This document shows, one piece after another, positions 34,436-44,623 of a stretch of 64,000 bases of DNA. The notes under the pieces were generated by a model, which worked only from the letters and a program-made list of their open reading frames with translations, did no database searches and was not told the DNA's origin. Both the position numbers and the translations under genes were made by a program. Location of the stretch: positions 124,001-188,000 of the forward strand of contig NZ_LXYG01000014.1 of assembly GCF_001650905.1 (NCBI RefSeq), given 5' to 3'. Source of the stretch: Balneola sp. EhC07 (GTDB lineage Bacteria; Bacteroidota; Rhodothermia; Balneolales; Balneolaceae). The first letter of the stretch is position 1. Each line of letters begins with the position of its first letter.

Positions 34436-34472
34436 TTGTTTGTGATTTGATCTGTTTGTAATTTAAAAGTCA

Positions 34473-34671
34473 ACGGTGTTGGTTTTGGAAACAAGTTCGT
34501 TTCTGAATTAAAAGGGAATTCCGTGATTCTGAATCTTCAGCTAAATCGGAAGCTGTTCCCGCAACTGTAATCCTTTTCGGCAATAGCCGGAACCGCAGCC
34601 TCACCTTTGCCACTGATCAATAGGATCGGGAAGGCGCTGCACAAGGAAAGCCAGGAGACCTGCCAATACGT
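34473..34671 (+). ncRNA. Cobalamin (adenosylcobalamin-type) riboswitch
   Basis: The closing stem is ACGGTGTTGG-side (34473-34482) with CCAATACGT (34663-34671). The conserved core is plain: AAGGGAATTCCGTG, GAAGCTGTTCCCGCAACTGTAA, GCCGGAACCGCAGCC, and the B12-box-like AGCCAGGAGACCTGCC. It ends 47 nt before the start codon of a BtuB-like receptor. In this class B12 binding shuts off expression. A further short hairpin (ATCTTT / AAAGAT, ~34687-34707) between the aptamer and the ATG could be the expression platform. Confidence 0.95.
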
Positions 34672-34718
34672 AAATTTTTCATAGCATCTTTCGGGAAAAA
34701 AGATCTAAGAATTATTAC

Positions 34719-36617
34719 ATGAGGTTTATAACCCTTTTTATAGCTGTTTCACTTTGGCTTTCTGCGAATGTACCGGCACAGGTTGTCTCTGATACTCTGA
34801 AAATGAAAGAGATCACGGTTACGTCCACCCGCTATAGAATTCCGGTTATTAAGCAACCAAGTCATACTGTATTGATTGATTCCGTTCAGTTAGCAAATAC
34901 AAATGGACAATCATTAGGTGAAGCACTAAGCCGATATTCTTCTATTTTTGTTCGTTCAAATGCTCCGGGAGCTGTTTCTTTGGCTTCATTCAGAGGTTTT
35001 GGAGGAGAACAAACCCGGGTACTTTGGGAAGGCATGCCGATTAATCATTCTATGCTAGGCGTGCTCGATCTTTCCTTGATCAGGTCAGGAGCATTTTCGT
35101 CGGTGGAAGTCAGTTCAGGTTCAGGAAGTTCAACCTATGGAAGTGGTATCAGCGGATCAGTATCATTGGCTTCTTCAATAAATTCCGGAGAATTTTCTGC
35201 TGGACAATCAATAGGTTCAAACTCCAATTATATCACATTCGGGAATATCGGATTTGAAGCCGGGAACTGGACGCTGGGTTTAGGCGGGTCAATTCAGGAA
35301 AATGAGAACGACTACAGATATTACGACAGAAATACGGAGCAGGAAGAAAATCGAAGGCACGCGACTTTTGATAACGATCAGTTTCAACTGCAAGCCGGAT
35401 GGAACAAAGAAGGAAAGAGATTTCAGTCAAAATTCTGGTATCTGAAATCAGATCATGAAATTCCCGAAAATGTATTTGTCGGTTCGGGAACTTCCAGGCA
35501 AAATGATTCGGCATCCCGTTGGGTAAGTTCATTTCATTTCAGAACGGGGAATGTGCAACACGGAATAAAATCCTACCTGGCACAAACTGAACTCGACTAC
35601 TTTGACCCGAACAGGAATATTGAAAGTATAAGTACGGGAAGAGAATGGAATAATGAGTGGGCAGCAACCATCTACATTTCGTCAGCGGTGTCGCTCACAA
35701 ATATAACGTCAGCACACTTTACAGAAGTAAAGACCAATAACTACACTGAGAAGAAATACAGAAATCTTTTAAGTGAGCAGTTGATGGCTGAAATATCACC
35801 AACTAAGGCTCTGGGAATTTTTCCCACTATTAGAGTAGATCACTATTCTGATTTTGGAGCAGCGGTGAGTCCTTCGCTTGGGATCAACTATCAGATCATC
35901 GAAGATGAAATATACTTTCATTCACTGGTTTCAAGAAATTTCAGAGCTCCTACTTTTAATGATCTGTACTGGCCAGAAGGTGGTAATGAAGACCTGAAGC
36001 CGGAAACTGCAATTTTAACAGAAGCCGGGATCGGAATAACGGATCAGTGGAAAAATGTAGGAGATCACAATCTTGCTTTTTTCAGAATGGATATTTCGAA
36101 TGGGATTAAATGGAATCCCGGAGGCGGAACTTTCTTCAGGGCTCAGAATTATCTGTCACTGTTAAGTTATGGCGTAGAATGGACTGCTTTCAAAGAATTT
36201 GAAGTGGGAACTTATAAACTCAGCTATTCTCAATCTTCAAGTTATACAAGGTCTACAATTGATGAGGCCAGATTTGATGGCGACGCGGCTGTCGGTGATC
36301 AACTTCCATATGTACCGAAATGGAAATATTCGGGATCGTTTTCAGTAAGCAGAGGAGATTTGAGAACATCACTATACGGCAACTGGGTTTCAGAAAGATA
36401 CTCCACAGAACAAAACGACATTCGAGATCCTGAGCCTTCCTACTTCGTGCTGGATGCATCAATTAATTATTCGAAAACCATCAGGAAAACACAATTCGAT
36501 CTTAGTGTGCAGGTGAATAATATTCTGGATGAGCAGTATGAAGTAGTGCGCCTGTATCCGCAACCCCTTAGAAATTTTTTAATAACACTAACTATAAAAC
36601 ATAAAAACGGTAACTAA
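34719..36617 (+). CDS. btuB: BtuB-like TonB-dependent vitamin B12 receptor
   Basis: 632 residues with signal peptide (cleavage near VPAQ, about 21), TonB-box-like MKEITVTSTR, a plug domain to ~160 (RGFGGEQTRVLWEGMPIN, GSGSSTYGSGISGSV) and a 22-strand-type barrel to the C-terminus. The length is close to E. coli BtuB. B12 specificity is inferred from the cobalamin riboswitch directly upstream and the BtuG-like gene directly downstream (TAATG overlap, one shared base). It carries cobalamin across the outer membrane using TonB energy. The terminal residue is Asn rather than the usual aromatic, with the last strand apparently ending ~6 residues earlier. Confidence 0.92.
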   Translation: MRFITLFIAVSLWLSANVPAQVVSDTLKMKEITVTSTRYRIPVIKQPSHTVLIDSVQLANTNGQSLGEALSRYSSIFVRSNAPGAVSLASFRGFGGEQTRVLWEGMPINHSMLGVLDLSLIRSGAFSSVEVSSGSGSSTYGSGISGSVSLASSINSGEFSAGQSIGSNSNYITFGNIGFEAGNWTLGLGGSIQENENDYRYYDRNTEQEENRRHATFDNDQFQLQAGWNKEGKRFQSKFWYLKSDHEIPENVFVGSGTSRQNDSASRWVSSFHFRTGNVQHGIKSYLAQTELDYFDPNRNIESISTGREWNNEWAATIYISSAVSLTNITSAHFTEVKTNNYTEKKYRNLLSEQLMAEISPTKALGIFPTIRVDHYSDFGAAVSPSLGINYQIIEDEIYFHSLVSRNFRAPTFNDLYWPEGGNEDLKPETAILTEAGIGITDQWKNVGDHNLAFFRMDISNGIKWNPGGGTFFRAQNYLSLLSYGVEWTAFKEFEVGTYKLSYSQSSSYTRSTIDEARFDGDAAVGDQLPYVPKWKYSGSFSVSRGDLRTSLYGNWVSERYSTEQNDIRDPEPSYFVLDASINYSKTIRKTQFDLSVQVNNILDEQYEVVRLYPQPLRNFLITLTIKHKNGN

Positions 36618-37663
36618 TGAAAAGACCACTGCTAATTGCATCTGCAATATTAATATCCCTAACCACAGCTTGTGATAAAAGTGATTCTGGCTCAGGAACA
36701 ACTTTGAACGGAGTATTTGTTCTGAATGAAGGAAATTTTGGACAAGCCAATGCAAGTATCACAGCTTATGATCCTGTAACAGGCGAAGCGTCTCAAAACC
36801 AATATGAAAATGAAAATGGTTCACCAATCGGAGATATACTTTACAGCGCTACGGAAATTGGAGATCGTTTATATCTGGTTGTTAATAATTCAAGCAAAAT
36901 TGAAGTGGTGGATAAGGAAACATTGACAAAGATAGCAACCATCAGAATCGCGAATGAAGCTAGTCCCAGAGAACTGGTTCAGGTAAGTGAAACCAAAGCG
37001 TATGTAACAAATCTTTATGGGAATTCAGTTTCCGTGATCGATCTGGTAACCAATGAAGAGGCTTCCATCATTGCCGTGGGATCAAACCCTGAGGGAATAG
37101 CTGTTGTTGGCGAGCGTGCTTACGTGGCAAATAGCGGATTTGGTAATGGCAATACACTCAGCATAATAAATACAGCAACAGATGAAGTTACCGGAACTAT
37201 TACAGTGGGTGACAATCCTGTAAGTATTTTGAAGCAAGACAACGATCAGTTATGGGTAGTTTGTGCAGGAGCTTACGGCGACTTCAGCGACCCTGACGAT
37301 GACACTCCCGGAATGATCTATGTGCTCAATGGTACAACAGCTGAAGTAGTAACCAGTTTTGAAGTTGGTGGACATCCCGGCGATTTAGTACTCAATGATC
37401 TGGATGATGTTGCTTACCTAATGAATGGTGATGTAATGAGTATTGATATGAATAATTTTGAAGTTATAGATTCAGCATTTATAGAAAAGAATTTTTATGC
37501 ATTAGGGTTTTCCACATCAGATGAAGGTCAATTTATTTGGGGTGCTGATGCCAAGAATTTTGCCCAGTCCGGGTTAGCAATTCAATACGATCTTAACGGT
37601 GTAAAGGTGGACAGTTTTCCAACAGGAATTATTCCGGGAGCATTTTATTTTTCAGCGGAATAG
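36617..37663 (+). CDS. BtuG-like YVTN beta-propeller lipoprotein
   Basis: 348 residues; signal peptide with lipobox TTAC (Cys about 19) followed by an Asp/Ser-rich linker, which in this group favours surface display. The remainder is a YVTN/NHL-like beta-propeller with repeats such as ATIRIANEASPRELVQ, SIIAVGSNPEGIAV and GTITVGDNPVSIL. In Bacteroides the surface lipoprotein BtuG has this architecture, sits beside BtuB, and binds B12 with extreme affinity to hand it to the receptor. Its coupled position behind btuB under the same riboswitch makes a BtuG role the best call. Sequence identity to BtuG was not measured, so a general cargo lipoprotein remains possible. Confidence 0.82.
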   Translation: MKRPLLIASAILISLTTACDKSDSGSGTTLNGVFVLNEGNFGQANASITAYDPVTGEASQNQYENENGSPIGDILYSATEIGDRLYLVVNNSSKIEVVDKETLTKIATIRIANEASPRELVQVSETKAYVTNLYGNSVSVIDLVTNEEASIIAVGSNPEGIAVVGERAYVANSGFGNGNTLSIINTATDEVTGTITVGDNPVSILKQDNDQLWVVCAGAYGDFSDPDDDTPGMIYVLNGTTAEVVTSFEVGGHPGDLVLNDLDDVAYLMNGDVMSIDMNNFEVIDSAFIEKNFYALGFSTSDEGQFIWGADAKNFAQSGLAIQYDLNGVKVDSFPTGIIPGAFYFSAE

Positions 37664-37689: not shown

Positions 37690-38010
37690 AAAATTAAGAT
37701 TAAATTGTTATCTATATTAGGTTAAAAAATCTAATAAATAGTTTTTAATAAAATTTTCCTTAAAATGAATTAATCATAAATAATAAAATATATAAAATTA
37801 GTTTATTTACAATATAAATGTGGATAACTTTCATTTCTATATTATGTAAAAAGCTTTCTTTAATAGTATTTAAAGGAAGCTTTTTTTATTTAACCGTAGA
37901 TTCGATCTTCAAATTTCAGGTAATAAAAATCATTAATAGCACTGCTTTTTTTAAGAGGATTAATCTGGCAATTGTTAATGTGGATAAGTGCTTCTTTTTG
38001 TGGAAAAGTA
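37690..38010. promoter_or_regulatory. AT-rich region with three DnaA-box-like sites
   Basis: 37690-37818 is extremely AT-rich. TGTGGATAA (reverse complement of the consensus DnaA box TTATCCACA) occurs at 37819-37827 and 37979-37987, and TGTGGAAAA (TTTTCCACA) at 37999-38007; all three point the same way. They lie upstream of a ribonucleotide reductase gene and near the switch in prevailing gene direction. Could be a DnaA-controlled promoter or an origin-type region. Confidence 0.5.
37848..37887 (+). terminator. Rho-independent terminator after btuB-btuG-like operon
   Basis: A 16-bp stem (AAAAAGCTTTCTTTAA with TTAAAGGAAGCTTTTT, one wobble pair) with a 6-nt loop and a run of seven T. It ends the riboswitch-controlled operon and separates it from nrdJ. 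Confidence 0.85.
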
Positions 38011-38158
38011 ATTCAGATTTAACTTGCTCACTCCAAGCCTCACATCTATATTAAATCTCACTTCTAAAGGAGAATAGGCTCCTGGCTTAAAGGTTTAACC
38101 TGCTCTATCAGCCCGAAGACAAGAAGAAGATTTTAGCAACGAAAAAACGGAGAAATAA

Positions 38159-41100
38159 ATGAAATTTACGCGCTTCTATACTCAAGCGGATTGGAAGACC
38201 CCATACGACTCAATGAAATTTGAATCCCGAACTTCGGAAATCAAGAACCCGGATGGTTCACAGGTTTTCCATATGTCTAACGTTCAGGTTCCTGACAGTT
38301 GGTCTCAGGTTGCAACAGATATTATAGCGCAAAAATATTTCCGTAAAGCAGGAGTACCGGCCAAGCTTAAAAAAGTTTCTGAGAAAGGAGTCCCAAAATG
38401 GTTGCAAAGATCAGAAGCTGATTCAAAAGCGTTGAAAGAACTGGACGAAAAAGATAGGTTTTCTCATGAAGTGGACAGTCGTCAGGTTTTCAGCAGACTG
38501 GCGGGTTGTTGGACTTATTGGGGTTGGAAGCATGATTATTTTGACTCTGAGGAAGACGCGAAAGTGTTTTATGAAGAGCTATGCTATATGCTTGCTAACC
38601 AAATGGCGGCACCGAATTCTCCGCAATGGTTTAATACAGGTTTGAATTGGGCATATGGAATTAACGGTCCGGCGCAGGGGCATTATTATGTGGATGCAAA
38701 GACAGGCAAGCTTACAAAATCAAAAGATTCCTACACGCATCCGCAGCCACATGCTTGTTTCATCCAGAGTGTAGATGATGACTTGGTAAATGAAGGAGGG
38801 ATCATGGATCTTTGGGTTCGTGAAGCTCGTCTTTTCAAGTATGGATCAGGAACAGGAAGTAATTTCTCCAATATCCGAGGAGCCAATGAGCCTTTAAGTG
38901 GTGGTGGAAAGTCTTCAGGATTAATGAGCTTCCTGAAAATTGGTGACAGAGCAGCGGGAGCCATCAAGTCCGGTGGAACAACTCGTCGTGCTGCTAAAAT
39001 GGTTACCCTTGATTTGGACCATCCGGATATTGAAGAGTACATCAACTGGAAAGTTCAGGAAGAGCAAAAAGTTGCGGCTCTGGTTTCCGGTTCAAAGATC
39101 ACGCAAAAGCATTTAAAAGATATTATCAAGTTATGCCATACTCCTGTTGAGATCGAAGGCAGAACTTTTAACGGCGCAATGAGTCGTGATCCACTGAAGA
39201 ATAAAGAGCTTGGAAAAGTAATTCGTCAGGCAAAACGTGATCAGGTTCCACTGAACTATATTGAACGTGTAATTCAGTTGGCAGCTCAGGGCGTTACAGA
39301 CATTAAGTTTGATACGTACGACACTGACTGGAATTCAGAAGCTTATGCTACTGTAGCAGGACAAAATTCCAATAACTCCGTTCGTGTTCCGAATGCATTT
39401 ATGCAGGCGGTTAAAGACGACGGACAGTGGAATCTTATCTGGAGAGTTGAAAAAGCAAAAGCGAAGAAAGAAGGTCGCGAGCCGGAACCAATGAAAGTGA
39501 TTGAGGCAAATGATCTTTGGGATCAGATCGCTTACGCAGCCTGGGCTTCTGCAGATCCTGGAACACAATATCATGACACCATCAACGAATGGCACACTTG
39601 TCCGGAAGATGGCGAGATAAAGGCAAGTAATCCTTGCTCTGAGTACATGTTTCTGGATAACACAGCGTGTAATTTGGCTTCTCTGAATCTGATGAAATAT
39701 TTCAAAGATGAAGAATGCACTACATTTGATGTTGAGTCAATTAGCTATGCTTCAAGAATCTGGACGACCGTGCTTGAGATCTCAGTATTGATGGCTCAGT
39801 TCCCATCTAAAGAAATTGCAGATCTGTCATACGTATTCAGAACATTAGGTCTTGGATATGCAAATATCGGAGCCGCTTTAATGGTTCAGGGAATTCCTTA
39901 TGACAGTGATGAAGGAATAGCGACAGCCGGTGCCATCACTTCGATAATGCACATGAAAGCGTATGAAACCAGTGCTGAAATGGCTGGTGAATTAGGTGCC
40001 TTTAAAGGTTACGAAAGAAACAAAGAGCATATGCTTCGTGTGATGAGAAATCACCGACGAGCAGCTTACAATGCTGATCCTAAAGAGTATGAAGGATTAA
40101 CGGTTAAGCCGATGGGAATCGATGCAACGATCTGTCCTGATTACCTGCTAAAAGCAGCTAAAGAAAACTCAGATCGCGCTGTGGCACTTGGTGAGAAAAA
40201 CGGATACAGAAATGCTCAGGTAACTGTACTTGCACCAACCGGAACTATTGGTCTGGTTATGGATTGTGATACTACCGGAGTTGAGCCTGATTTCGCATTG
40301 GTGAAATTCAAGAAACTTGCCGGTGGTGGTTATTTTAAGATCATCAACCAAAGTGTACCGAAAGCTTTAAAGACATTGGGCTATTCTGCAAAAGAGTCCA
40401 AAGCCATTATCGATTACGCTAAAGGCGCAGCTAGTTTAGATGGTTGCCCACATGTGAATCCTGAGACACTAAAAGCGAAAGGATTTACCGATGAAAAACT
40501 GGAAGCTGTTGAAGCAGCACTGCCAAGTAGTTTTGATATAAAGTTTGCTTTCAATCAGTGGACTCTCGGTGAAGATTTCTGCAAAGATGTTCTTGAAATT
40601 ACGGAAGAACAATTAAGTGATGTTACTTTTGATATGCTGCGTCACTTAGGATTCAGTCGCGAGCAGATTACTGAAGCTAATGATTATGTTTGTGGTACTA
40701 TGACAGTGGAAGGAGCTCCTTATTTAAAAGATGAGCACTTGGCTGTGTTCGATTGCGCAAACAAATGTGGTAGAACAGGAACAAGATTTATTTCAGCTCG
40801 CGGTCACATCAGAATGATGGCAGCAGCTCAGCCGTTCTTGTCAGGAGCAATTTCAAAAACCATCAACCTTCCGAACGAAGCTACCATCGAAGACATGAAA
40901 GATGCATATATGCTTTCATGGGAAATGATGTTGAAAGCAAATGCGCTTTATCGTGACGGTTCAAAATTAAGTCAGCCGCTGAACAGTTTGGCTGATGTAT
41001 TTGAAGAACTGGAAGAGGAAGAAGAGGATACTGTAGATGGATCAACAACAGCAGAACAAGACAAAGTTGTTGAAGTTGCTGAGCGAATTATTCATAAATA

Positions 41101-41764
41101 TCTAGCTCGTCGCCAGAGACTTCCATTCCGTCGTGAAGGTTATACTCAGAAGGTTAAGATTGGTGGACAAAGTGTTTATCTGAGAACCGGTGAGTACGAA
41201 AATGGTCAGCTTGGCGAGATCTTTATTGATATGCACCGTGAAGGAGCCGCTTTCAGAAGTTTACTGAACTGTTTTGCGATTTCGATCTCTCTTGGTTTAC
41301 AACACGGAGTGCCGTTAGAAGAGTTTGTGGATGCTTTTGTATTCACCAAGTTCGAGCCAAGCGGAATGGTTACCGGAAATCCTCATGTGAAAATGAGTAC
41401 TTCAGTGATCGATTATATCTTCCGTGAATTAGCGGTTGCTTACTTAGGTCGTGAAGACTTAGCTCATGTTCCTGCTGATGAGATCTCAACCAGAGATCTT
41501 CGTCCAACGCCCGGCGGAGAAGTAGTGGAAACCACCAAAACTGTTGCAAAAGCTCCGGTTGCAGAACCGCAGAAACAAACAGTGGATGCAGTTGCACCAC
41601 AGGCTAAAGCCAAAGCAGGATCCAGCTACGAAACTGATTACGAAAAGGCTAAGCAATTGGGTTATACCGGTGATGCTTGTCCGGAATGCGGTAGCATGAC
41701 GATGGTTCGAAACGGAACGTGTATGAAATGTATTACCTGCGGTTCAACTTCAGGTTGTAGTTAA
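38159..41764 (+). CDS. nrdJ: Vitamin B12-dependent (class II) ribonucleoside-diphosphate reductase
   Basis: 1201 residues, the long NrdJ form. An N-terminal region (to ~150) precedes the ten-stranded barrel. [11 protein letters not shown] near 200 has one of the redox cysteines; NPCSEYMF contains the thiyl-radical-type Cys493 motif; [24 protein letters not shown] is a class II mark. The C-terminus has a Pro/Ala/Lys-rich linker and CPECG ... CMKCITCG ... SGCS, a zinc ribbon plus redox tail. It makes deoxyribonucleotides using adenosylcobalamin as radical source, with no NrdB partner. GGAG lies 8 nt before the ATG. It follows a B12-uptake operon, after its own ~495-bp upstream region. Confidence 0.96.
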
Positions 41765-41868: not shown

Positions 41869-44073
41869 TTAAAGCAGTATCAAATAAGTTAGCTTAACAA
41901 TTGCGATCTCATTATTCATTATCAGATCTCTGTTCGGATCAAATAGAAATTCATTATCACCGGTAAGGTGGTAAGAAGTGTTATAAACAAAGAACAGATC
42001 ACTTCCCGGAGTATGGATCCAATCCACACGAAGATTAGCTTGAATATTCCGTGAAAAGTTATCGTACTGTATCAATGTTTTGGTGAAGAGTTTTCTGCTG
42101 AACGCTCCCAAAATAGACATCGAAACTGTTGTAGCTTCAAATTCTCCGTTATTTACAGGCAGATCTATAATAGAATGATTGATTCGACCTTCAAGTGTAA
42201 GGTGTTGTGATTGTCTCAAACCAAATCCACCACTTATATCTGTTCTGTTACCATTGAAAAATTCACCGAATTCAATGCCTGCATTAGCAAATAATCTTCT
42301 GCTTGAATCTGTTTCTCCGTTTATTTGAAAACGATTAAAGGTATAATCTCCTGCCTGAATGGTAGTATTTGGTCGAATGGAGAATGGAGCAAATAATCGT
42401 TCGAATTGACTACTGAATTCCATTGACAAACGATCTCTTCTTTGAAATTCAAGCGTGCCGCCAAATTCAAATTCTGTAGATTGTTTTACACCATCCTGAC
42501 CTTCTATATAATCATATAATCCGCTAATAATAATCCTGTTCAGTGTTTCAACCTTCGGTATCGTTGGGCTGTAACTTCCTCTTACATCATATTGTCTCAT
42601 ATTCCGTCTGCGAACAAAACCAAGAGAAGGTCTATAGTTAACACCAACATTAGTGTAAGATAATTGTCCCGAATACAGATCATTTCTCAACCGAATTGAA
42701 GCATGTCCGGCAGCATCATTAAAGAGTTCCTGATCATCCCAAACATTTGTAAACCACGCATTGAAAAGACTGGCACTGCCAAACCGGTACTGAGTATCTA
42801 TTCCTAAAGCTCTGTTATATTCATTCCCGATCTGTGTATTTGTAAATATAGCACCGGCAGTTGCTCTTGGAAATATGTCGTTTCTAAAACGGATCACAGT
42901 ATTATTCGTTGAGTTTGAACCCAGAAAATCCTTCATGCTATTTCCTGTCTCAATATTTAACGCTCCAATTGAGGTCTTGCCGATTTGCCCCGTCATTCGT
43001 GCACCTGCGAGAATTTCATTGGTCAAGCCAATTCTTCTTGAAAAGTAAGTTTGGGTGCTCTGTAAATTCCCATGTTCAAAAAGTCCGGATCTTTCTAAAA
43101 AGAACTCTCTTTTTTCAGGGAAGAATAAGTTAAAACGAGTGAGGTTTAGCTGGACATTATCTGATTCAACTTGAGCAAAATCAGTATTTACAGTAAGGTC
43201 TAATGTCAGATTCGACGAAATTCCATATTTAATATCTACTCCAATATCTTCAGTATATTCAACATTGGTATCTTCATTAGCCAGATCGGGACGAATTTCC
43301 TGAGCTCCACCTATTACATATGGCTTGATCTCTAAATTTTTACCTCTGTTTATATCTTTAATGCCGGTAAGTTTGCCATACTGAGAAACAGCAGCCAGAG
43401 ATGTGAAATTTCCATATTCCAAACCAATTCTGGGCCAAAGAACACGTTCGTTCTTTCGGTTTATAGTTCGGGATAACATGATTCCAAAATTTAGCTCATC
43501 ATCATCCGGAAATCTCAGTTGTCTGAAGGGAATGGAAACTTCTAATGTCCAACCCTGATCGTCAATAATAGTTTCACTAACAAATACAGCATCCCAGGAG
43601 AAGCTGGTGATAGTGAGGCGTTCGTCTGTAATTGTAGCGTCGTCCTGAGTTCCCAATGCATTCATTTCGAATAAATATGCATTCCTACCGTCTCCAAATG
43701 TATCCAGGCCAATATAGGCGTGATCATCCCGATCATTTCTACCCCCACGTTCGAGATTTTTTGCTCTGATCAGTTCAGGATTCTTGTCGTAGAATCTGAA
43801 AGCGAAATAAAGGTTATCCCTGTCATAAGCGATGCGAACTTCAGAATCTTCAGTGGCCGGTTCGCCATCACTTGGCCATACTTGTATAAAATTGGTGATT
43901 GGGGAAATACTTTTCCAAACCAGGTCATTGATATCTCCATCAATTTTAGGAGCTTCATTTATAAATACTGCTCTTATCTCATTTTCGGGATTAGCAGTTT
44001 GTTGAGAGAAGAGAACCGATGTTCCCAAAATTACACATAAAAGTGAGCTAAAGAATATTCTATATCTGATCAT
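41869..44073 (-). CDS. DUF5916 outer-membrane protein with CBM9-like N-terminal domain
   Basis: 734 residues; signal peptide (cleavage near VLFSQ, about 24). Residues ~35-210 are a carbohydrate-binding-family-9-like domain (APKIDGDINDLVWKS, VRIAYDRDNLYFAFRFYD, DDHAYIGLDTFGDGRNAYLFEMN). The rest is DUF5916, a beta-barrel-like region beginning NFGIMLSRTINRKNE and containing FFPEKREFFLERSGLF, the best-conserved stretch of this family as I recall it. Such proteins sit in the outer membrane of Bacteroidota; the ligand is unknown. Convergent with nrdJ. The gene at 44210 lies upstream on the same strand with a 136-bp gap that may hold its own promoter. Confidence 0.85.
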   Translation of the reverse strand: MIRYRIFFSSLLCVILGTSVLFSQQTANPENEIRAVFINEAPKIDGDINDLVWKSISPITNFIQVWPSDGEPATEDSEVRIAYDRDNLYFAFRFYDKNPELIRAKNLERGGRNDRDDHAYIGLDTFGDGRNAYLFEMNALGTQDDATITDERLTITSFSWDAVFVSETIIDDQGWTLEVSIPFRQLRFPDDDELNFGIMLSRTINRKNERVLWPRIGLEYGNFTSLAAVSQYGKLTGIKDINRGKNLEIKPYVIGGAQEIRPDLANEDTNVEYTEDIGVDIKYGISSNLTLDLTVNTDFAQVESDNVQLNLTRFNLFFPEKREFFLERSGLFEHGNLQSTQTYFSRRIGLTNEILAGARMTGQIGKTSIGALNIETGNSMKDFLGSNSTNNTVIRFRNDIFPRATAGAIFTNTQIGNEYNRALGIDTQYRFGSASLFNAWFTNVWDDQELFNDAAGHASIRLRNDLYSGQLSYTNVGVNYRPSLGFVRRRNMRQYDVRGSYSPTIPKVETLNRIIISGLYDYIEGQDGVKQSTEFEFGGTLEFQRRDRLSMEFSSQFERLFAPFSIRPNTTIQAGDYTFNRFQINGETDSSRRLFANAGIEFGEFFNGNRTDISGGFGLRQSQHLTLEGRINHSIIDLPVNNGEFEATTVSMSILGAFSRKLFTKTLIQYDNFSRNIQANLRVDWIHTPGSDLFFVYNTSYHLTGDNEFLFDPNRDLIMNNEIAIVKLTYLILL

Positions 44074-44209
44074 TTTTTTGATTTAAGAAGTCCTGAATAT
44101 TATTGTTGATACCCCAAACCTGACTGAGATATTTATTCAAGCAAATATAGAAAAAAATCAATTGGCACAACCCTGTTTACAACTTGTATCAATTCAAGTT
44201 GCCGTAAGG

Positions 44210-44623
44210 CTATTTTAATGATGAAAACTTAGTTCGGGTTATCTTGTGAAATACGTTCTTTCTGAACTCTCCGGGTTTTAATTCGTTCAGCAATCTGACA
44301 CCACCATATTCTTTGTTGCGCTCTTTTATGATTTGCTGGAATCGCTCTTCACCTTGTTGATACTGTTTTTCGTTTTTATATCTGGTGATGAGGATGATAT
44401 CAAAATCAGCAACTGAGTCGGCTTCTGTTATCAAAAGTTCATATGATTCAATAAAATCCCTCTCTTTTGCTATATCACGTAGAATTTTCCAATTGTTTTC
44501 ATAATAATAGATCAATTCTTCTTTATTATTATCTACCGTTTTTATGAAATCAAAAATTGATACTTCCTGAGCTGATAATGAACCAGCACTTAACATTGTT
44601 AAAAGGAATAAAAGCTTTTTCAT
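44210..44623 (-). CDS. Small secreted protein of unknown function
   Basis: 137 residues with a clear signal peptide (MKKLLFLLTMLSAGSLSAQ, cleavage at about 19). The mature part is a compact alpha/beta domain, rich in Lys/Glu/Tyr, with a DFDIILITRYKNEKQYQ segment that recalls the dimeric alpha-beta barrel (ferredoxin-like) fold of small stress or monooxygenase-like proteins; that is a weak impression. Divergent from the symporter genes to its right. Function not assigned. Confidence 0.65.
   Translation of the reverse strand: MKKLLFLLTMLSAGSLSAQEVSIFDFIKTVDNNKEELIYYYENNWKILRDIAKERDFIESYELLITEADSVADFDIILITRYKNEKQYQQGEERFQQIIKERNKEYGGVRLLNELKPGEFRKNVFHKITRTKFSSLK

Follow-up and report, generated by a model that had tools for sequence, protein, structure and literature searches.

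DnaA boxes upstream of nrdJ and their genomic setting

Do three DnaA boxes in the genome of Balneola sp. EhC07 mark the origin of chromosome replication, or do they belong to the promoter of the gene that follows them? The window analyzed here is a stretch of 64,000 nucleotides from the 3.62 Mb draft genome (20 contigs) of this bacterium. The boxes are located between a probable B12-uptake operon and nrdJ, which encodes the class II (B12-dependent) ribonucleotide reductase (RNR). Judging from sequence comparisons, they very probably form a control element through which the nrdJ promoter responds to DnaA, and are not an origin. The features of the region are listed below.

34463-34681, plus strand: cobalamin riboswitch, preceding the genes for a TonB receptor and a DUF5074/YncE-like protein
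34719-36617 and 36617-37663, plus strand: genes for the TonB receptor and the DUF5074/YncE-like protein, immediately preceding the B12-dependent nrdJ
37690..37815, no strand: AT-rich stretch, 89.7% AT, upstream of box 1
37819..37827, minus strand: DnaA box 1 (distal), TTATCCACA, exact match, about -237 from the predicted transcription start
37848..37885, plus strand: intrinsic terminator closing the probable B12-uptake operon, with a 16-pair stem and a T-run
37979..37987, minus strand: DnaA box 2, TTATCCACA, centre at about -77
37999..38007, minus strand: DnaA box 3, TTTTCCACA, centre at about -57, 20 bp from box 2
38024..38052, plus strand: predicted nrdJ promoter, read from the sequence as TTGCTC (38024-38029), 17 bp and TATATT (38047-38052)
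38159..41764, plus strand: nrdJ, class II (B12-dependent) RNR, 1201 aa (Pfam; PDB 7b9p, E = 0)

An earlier, sequence-only reading of this locus had described three DnaA boxes of the same orientation adjoining DNA of extreme AT content, and both observations were confirmed. All three boxes were found on the minus strand (TTATCCACA twice and TTTTCCACA once), and the AT content of 37690-37815 equals the window maximum for any 126 bp. The same reading had placed the boxes at the switch in gene direction, which proved incorrect: both genes directly to the left are already on the plus strand, and the flip occurs at about 34.2-34.7 kb, ~3 kb left of the boxes. Two minus-strand genes follow nrdJ (41869-44623), and the terminator stands between box 1 and boxes 2 and 3. 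The nrdJ gene was the sole RNR found in this genome, in which no other RNR large subunit, NrdB or NrdD was detected. The DUF5074 neighbour is kept beside nrdJ in many relatives.

The loose pattern TTWTNCACA was not enriched in the window (11 occurrences vs 9 expected) or in the genome. The exact 9-mer TTATCCACA occurs in just 45 copies in 3.62 Mb, so that only ~0.04 same-strand pairs of it within 160 bp are expected genome-wide. The exact pair formed by boxes 2 and 3 was present in one copy in a whole-genome scan.

Conservation of the box pair before nrdJ

The exact pair, TTTTCCACA-N11-TTATCCACA, was identified before nrdJ in 50 of the 58 family genomes and in none of 40 genomes outside the family, and a reversed-pattern control gave no match. 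Fifty of the 53 matches of the exact pair sit before nrdJ, with three further copies elsewhere. Among the eight family genomes lacking the exact pair, five had no nrdJ hit and three carried a one-base variant or a 21-bp step; the exact pair was therefore present in all but 3 of the 53 family genomes in which nrdJ was found. When one genome per genus was sampled (18 genera; the same sample was used for the spacing), conservation amounted to 1.88 bits per column in box 2 and 1.92 in box 3, and to 0.18 in the upstream flank. A distal box, located 140-199 bp upstream of box 2, was found in most, not all, family genomes and was sometimes doubled with a 19-20 bp step; its distance varied without a clear helical step. 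Control of nrdJ by DnaA had been put forward earlier as the alternative to an origin, to be judged by whether relatives keep the boxes before nrdJ, and the retention of the boxes there argues for such control at the level of sequence.

Outside this family but within the order, 15 of 18 nrdJ upstream regions contained DnaA-like boxes in tandem, separated by 2 bp. Such tandem boxes never arose in Markov-resampled sequence, the relaxed box list having been chosen after viewing the data. Pairs of this kind were absent at nrdJ of Ignavibacteria and of nearly all sampled Alphaproteobacteria, so the element does not accompany nrdJ everywhere.

In one relative, G051, the nrdJ promoter and its DnaA pair recur at two additional loci as copies that are 77-80% identical (L246, G051:C16:77500; L247, G051:C32:359). 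They precede short ORFs (56 and 33 aa), and one adjoins a Pycsar-like cyclase/PycTM pair. In another genome, the same box pair was observed in the intergenic region separating gyrB from an L28-like ribosomal protein gene, the latter assigned by eye (L248, G029:C7:8491-8519).

Promoter geometry and the nrdJ leader

The TTGCTC-17-TATATT arrangement suggests a transcription start near 38059, and the positions given above for the box centres (about -57, -77, and -237) follow from this start. The promoter scored below the threshold of a generic promoter scan. The distances of 16 bp from box 3 to the TTG and of 39 bp to the TATATT-like -10 element were near-constant across the 18 genera, while the flanks diverged.

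No consensus structure was obtained for a structured RNA leader of nrdJ by RNAalifold (31 leaders), and the leader had no Rfam match at gathering thresholds. In nrdJ leaders of genus g4 (e.g., L027, L029, and L030), pairing is possible between CGUACUUC at the 5' end of the RNA and GAAGUACG immediately ahead of the start codon. The helix between the 5' end and the pre-start region, CGTACTTC/GAAGTACG, was clear mainly in one genus, where its sequence is identical. In addition, a long near-perfect hairpin was inserted in the nrdJ leader of a single genome (L087 of G008).

Class I RNR operons and absence of NrdR

A similar DnaA-like pair was found upstream of the class I RNR operon in all six family genomes examined, with a step of 20 bp at five loci and of 21 bp at one (G006). 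At five of the six loci, the pair was the best matrix match in 12-14 kb on both strands, scoring 22-28 vs 7-13 for the next-best match, with a pair matrix that was built after seeing the data. One of the genomes, G027, had no nrdJ hit and carried the pair before its class I nrdB-nrdA. Five family genomes with an additional class I RNR have operons preceded by a cobalamin riboswitch:

L260-L264 (G006, G026, G025, G031, and G024): class I RNR operons, each behind a cobalamin riboswitch

The gene order metE-nrdB-nrdA was checked in G025 and G031. The class I RNRs behind the riboswitch are apparently B12-independent enzymes that are turned off by B12 and carry the same DnaA-type element. Since the nrdJ promoter of G051 recurs at two other sites in that genome, the class I promoters may likewise have been copied from that of nrdJ, and may not be independent cases.

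For NrdR, no match above the cut-off was found in the EhC07 genome, in any of 59 relatives, or in any of 148 genomes of the phylum, with controls positive in 9 of 14 cases. Control of nrdJ by NrdR was rejected, as NrdR was not found above the cut-off.

Proposed control of nrdJ by DnaA and alternative readings

We consider it probable that DnaA acts on nrdJ as an activator. DnaA would bind the tandem boxes 2 and 3, which have the same orientation and lie two helical turns apart, just upstream of the -35 element, and bound DnaA would contact or stabilize RNA polymerase and so favour its binding. Expression of nrdJ would thereby track the level and nucleotide state of DnaA and depend on free or active DnaA. 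Box 1, at about -237, and the AT-rich stretch would probably modulate this effect by bending or looping the DNA or by recruiting additional DnaA at high DnaA-ATP, a state in which box 1 may also contribute repression. DnaA binding, looping, and cell-cycle coupling at nrdJ are proposed here by analogy with Escherichia coli nrdAB and with the E. coli ChIP-seq map described below.

A mainly repressive role, or a DnaA-ATP switch, in which DnaA blocks or loops the promoter at high DnaA-ATP, is a less probable reading, one that we regard as unlikely on balance. It has a precedent in E. coli nrdAB, which is activated by low DnaA or DnaA-ADP and repressed by high DnaA-ATP (PMC8203912), and the distal box at -237, sometimes with a second pair, would permit looping. 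However, boxes 2 and 3 do not overlap the core promoter and are located upstream of the -35 element at a near-fixed distance, which is the usual geometry of an activator, and the spacing of the distal box is variable, with no clear helical step.

The boxes could also be a DnaA titration or reactivation site (datA/DARS-like) that lies before nrdJ by chance; their consensus sequence, their conservation, and their distance from the oriC candidate described below (about 1.1-1.2 Mb in G003 and G039) are compatible with such a site. Neither the near-fixed promoter geometry in 18 genera nor the occurrence of a similar pair before unlinked RNR operons of class I would be expected in that case, and we regard this reading as very improbable. 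Equally small is the chance that a different transcription factor uses the pair and that the likeness to DnaA boxes is a coincidence. The 11-bp gap, which is unlike that of the E. coli double box, speaks for another factor, but identical 9-mers recur at the dnaA promoter and in the oriC candidate, sister families have double boxes with a 2-bp gap, and NrdR is absent.

Activation by DnaA thus remains the preferred reading for nrdJ. Extending it to the other RNR class, we tentatively propose, as something quite possible, that DnaA is a shared regulator of class II nrdJ and the riboswitch-preceded class I nrdB-nrdA in this NrdR-free phylum, through a two-turn pair that would imply a DnaA-promoter complex unlike that of the E. 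coli double box.

Location of the replication origin

That the nrdJ region is the chromosomal origin (oriC), with boxes 1-3 and the AT-rich stretch as a duplex unwinding element, was suggested by same-orientation DnaA boxes adjoining about 126 bp of 90% AT, but this reading can almost certainly be dismissed: in two complete relatives the sampled skew minimum is not at nrdJ, dnaA is carried by a different contig (C16), and a conserved oriC candidate was found at dtd. Skew was read from sampled 20-kb stretches around the chromosomes of the two relatives. In G003 (same genus), the minimum was at ~0.95 Mb and the maximum at ~2.65 Mb, with nrdJ at 3.34 Mb; in G039 (same family), the minimum was at ~0.3 Mb, with nrdJ at 2.86 Mb. 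The sampled maxima were about half a chromosome from the minima. In both genomes, nrdJ was about 1.1-1.2 Mb from the sampled minimum, i.e., not at the GC-skew minimum, where an oriC would be expected. Further, third-position skew kept mostly one sign over C14:104-248 kb, with no reversal at nrdJ. Fourfold-site skew there was mostly positive for genes of both strands and on both sides of nrdJ, with some bins small or slightly negative. This pattern is expected if the whole stretch belongs to a single replichore and nrdJ is a leading-strand gene.

AT content upstream was similar in many relatives, yet several genera with retained boxes reached only 62-75%, and the AT-rich stretch is therefore not obligatory for the element. 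An origin would have its box cluster and AT-rich element conserved together; here, the boxes were kept and the AT-rich part was missing in several genera.

Both sampled minima coincided with the same DnaA-box gap beside dtd, and the orthologous gap was identified in contig C17:

C17:122436-122873 (L002:12436-12873), between dtd and a DinB-like gene: AT-rich gap, oriC candidate of Balneolaceae

Within this gap, two DnaA boxes face each other at a distance of 71 bp, accompanied by other DnaA-like 9-mers. The 9-mers of the nrdJ boxes recur at this candidate and at the dnaA promoter.

Four same-orientation DnaA boxes with near-constant spacing were observed at the dnaA promoter (L001/L004; G000:C16:247937-248207) in seven family genomes, the distal two having a 2-bp gap; G066 shows two of the four, its record starting nearby. 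These boxes likely serve autoregulation. In addition, a pair of opposite-orientation boxes, 13 bp apart, was found ~14-18 kb from the oriC candidate in three genomes, and could be a second DnaA site:

G000:C17:136879-136900; G003:939931-939952; G039:338577-338598: TTATCAACA/TTATCCACA pair

Relation to known systems and significance

Control of RNR by DnaA is already known from E. coli; what sets the present case apart is the class II target, the spacing, and the NrdR-free setting. As in E. coli nrdAB, consensus DnaA boxes lie upstream of an RNR promoter, here conserved in relatives, and an AT-rich stretch is also present. The E. coli operon differs in that it encodes a class Ia RNR and its boxes are 3 bp apart, whereas the gene studied here encodes a class II enzyme and has an 11-bp gap and an extra distal box in a lineage without NrdR. 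Going by the title of Sun 1994, which the review PMC8203912 cites, an AT-rich upstream sequence is reportedly required for cell-cycle control.

A ChIP-seq map of E. coli located DnaA on paired boxes at nrdA and also upstream of nrdD (PMC11317965). In that double-box regulon (nrdA, nrdD, polA, purH, etc.), paired same-orientation boxes mark the bound promoters and RNR genes are targeted; nrdJ, also an RNR gene, likewise has a same-orientation pair, and the 2-bp gap at 15 of the 18 nrdJ loci in the other families of the order resembles that regulon further. The box spacing favoured by E. coli DnaA is 2-3 bp, and one inserted bp abolishes binding (PMC11317965). At nrdJ of EhC07 and its family, the boxes are 11 bp apart, so this binding rule is not simply transferable.

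With control by NrdR and its boxes (PMC4009431), the element shares a paired cis-element common to class I and class II RNR operons and a helical-turn spacing; it differs in its motif, and NrdR was not found encoded in the phylum sample. DnaA control of RNR has also been proposed for Bacillus subtilis and Caulobacter crescentus, without detailed analysis there (PMC8203912), which likewise makes DnaA a proposed RNR regulator outside the gammaproteobacteria. In the open-access literature, no paper was found on DnaA control of a class II RNR or on such control in Balneolaceae, nor on DnaA with nrdAB in Bacteroidetes.

The literature found gives no settled account of RNR control in bacteria lacking NrdR. 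In Balneolaceae, a motif that is near-unique in each genome would link RNR promoters of different classes to DnaA. The dtd gap provides a concrete oriC candidate for the family, and the nrdJ case indicates that clusters of DnaA boxes by themselves should not be named origins. Because the boxes are a conserved element before nrdJ in a family without NrdR, DnaA probably governs how much DNA precursor is supplied in Balneolaceae. With RNR promoters tied to the replication initiator, dNTP supply would directly follow initiation capacity.
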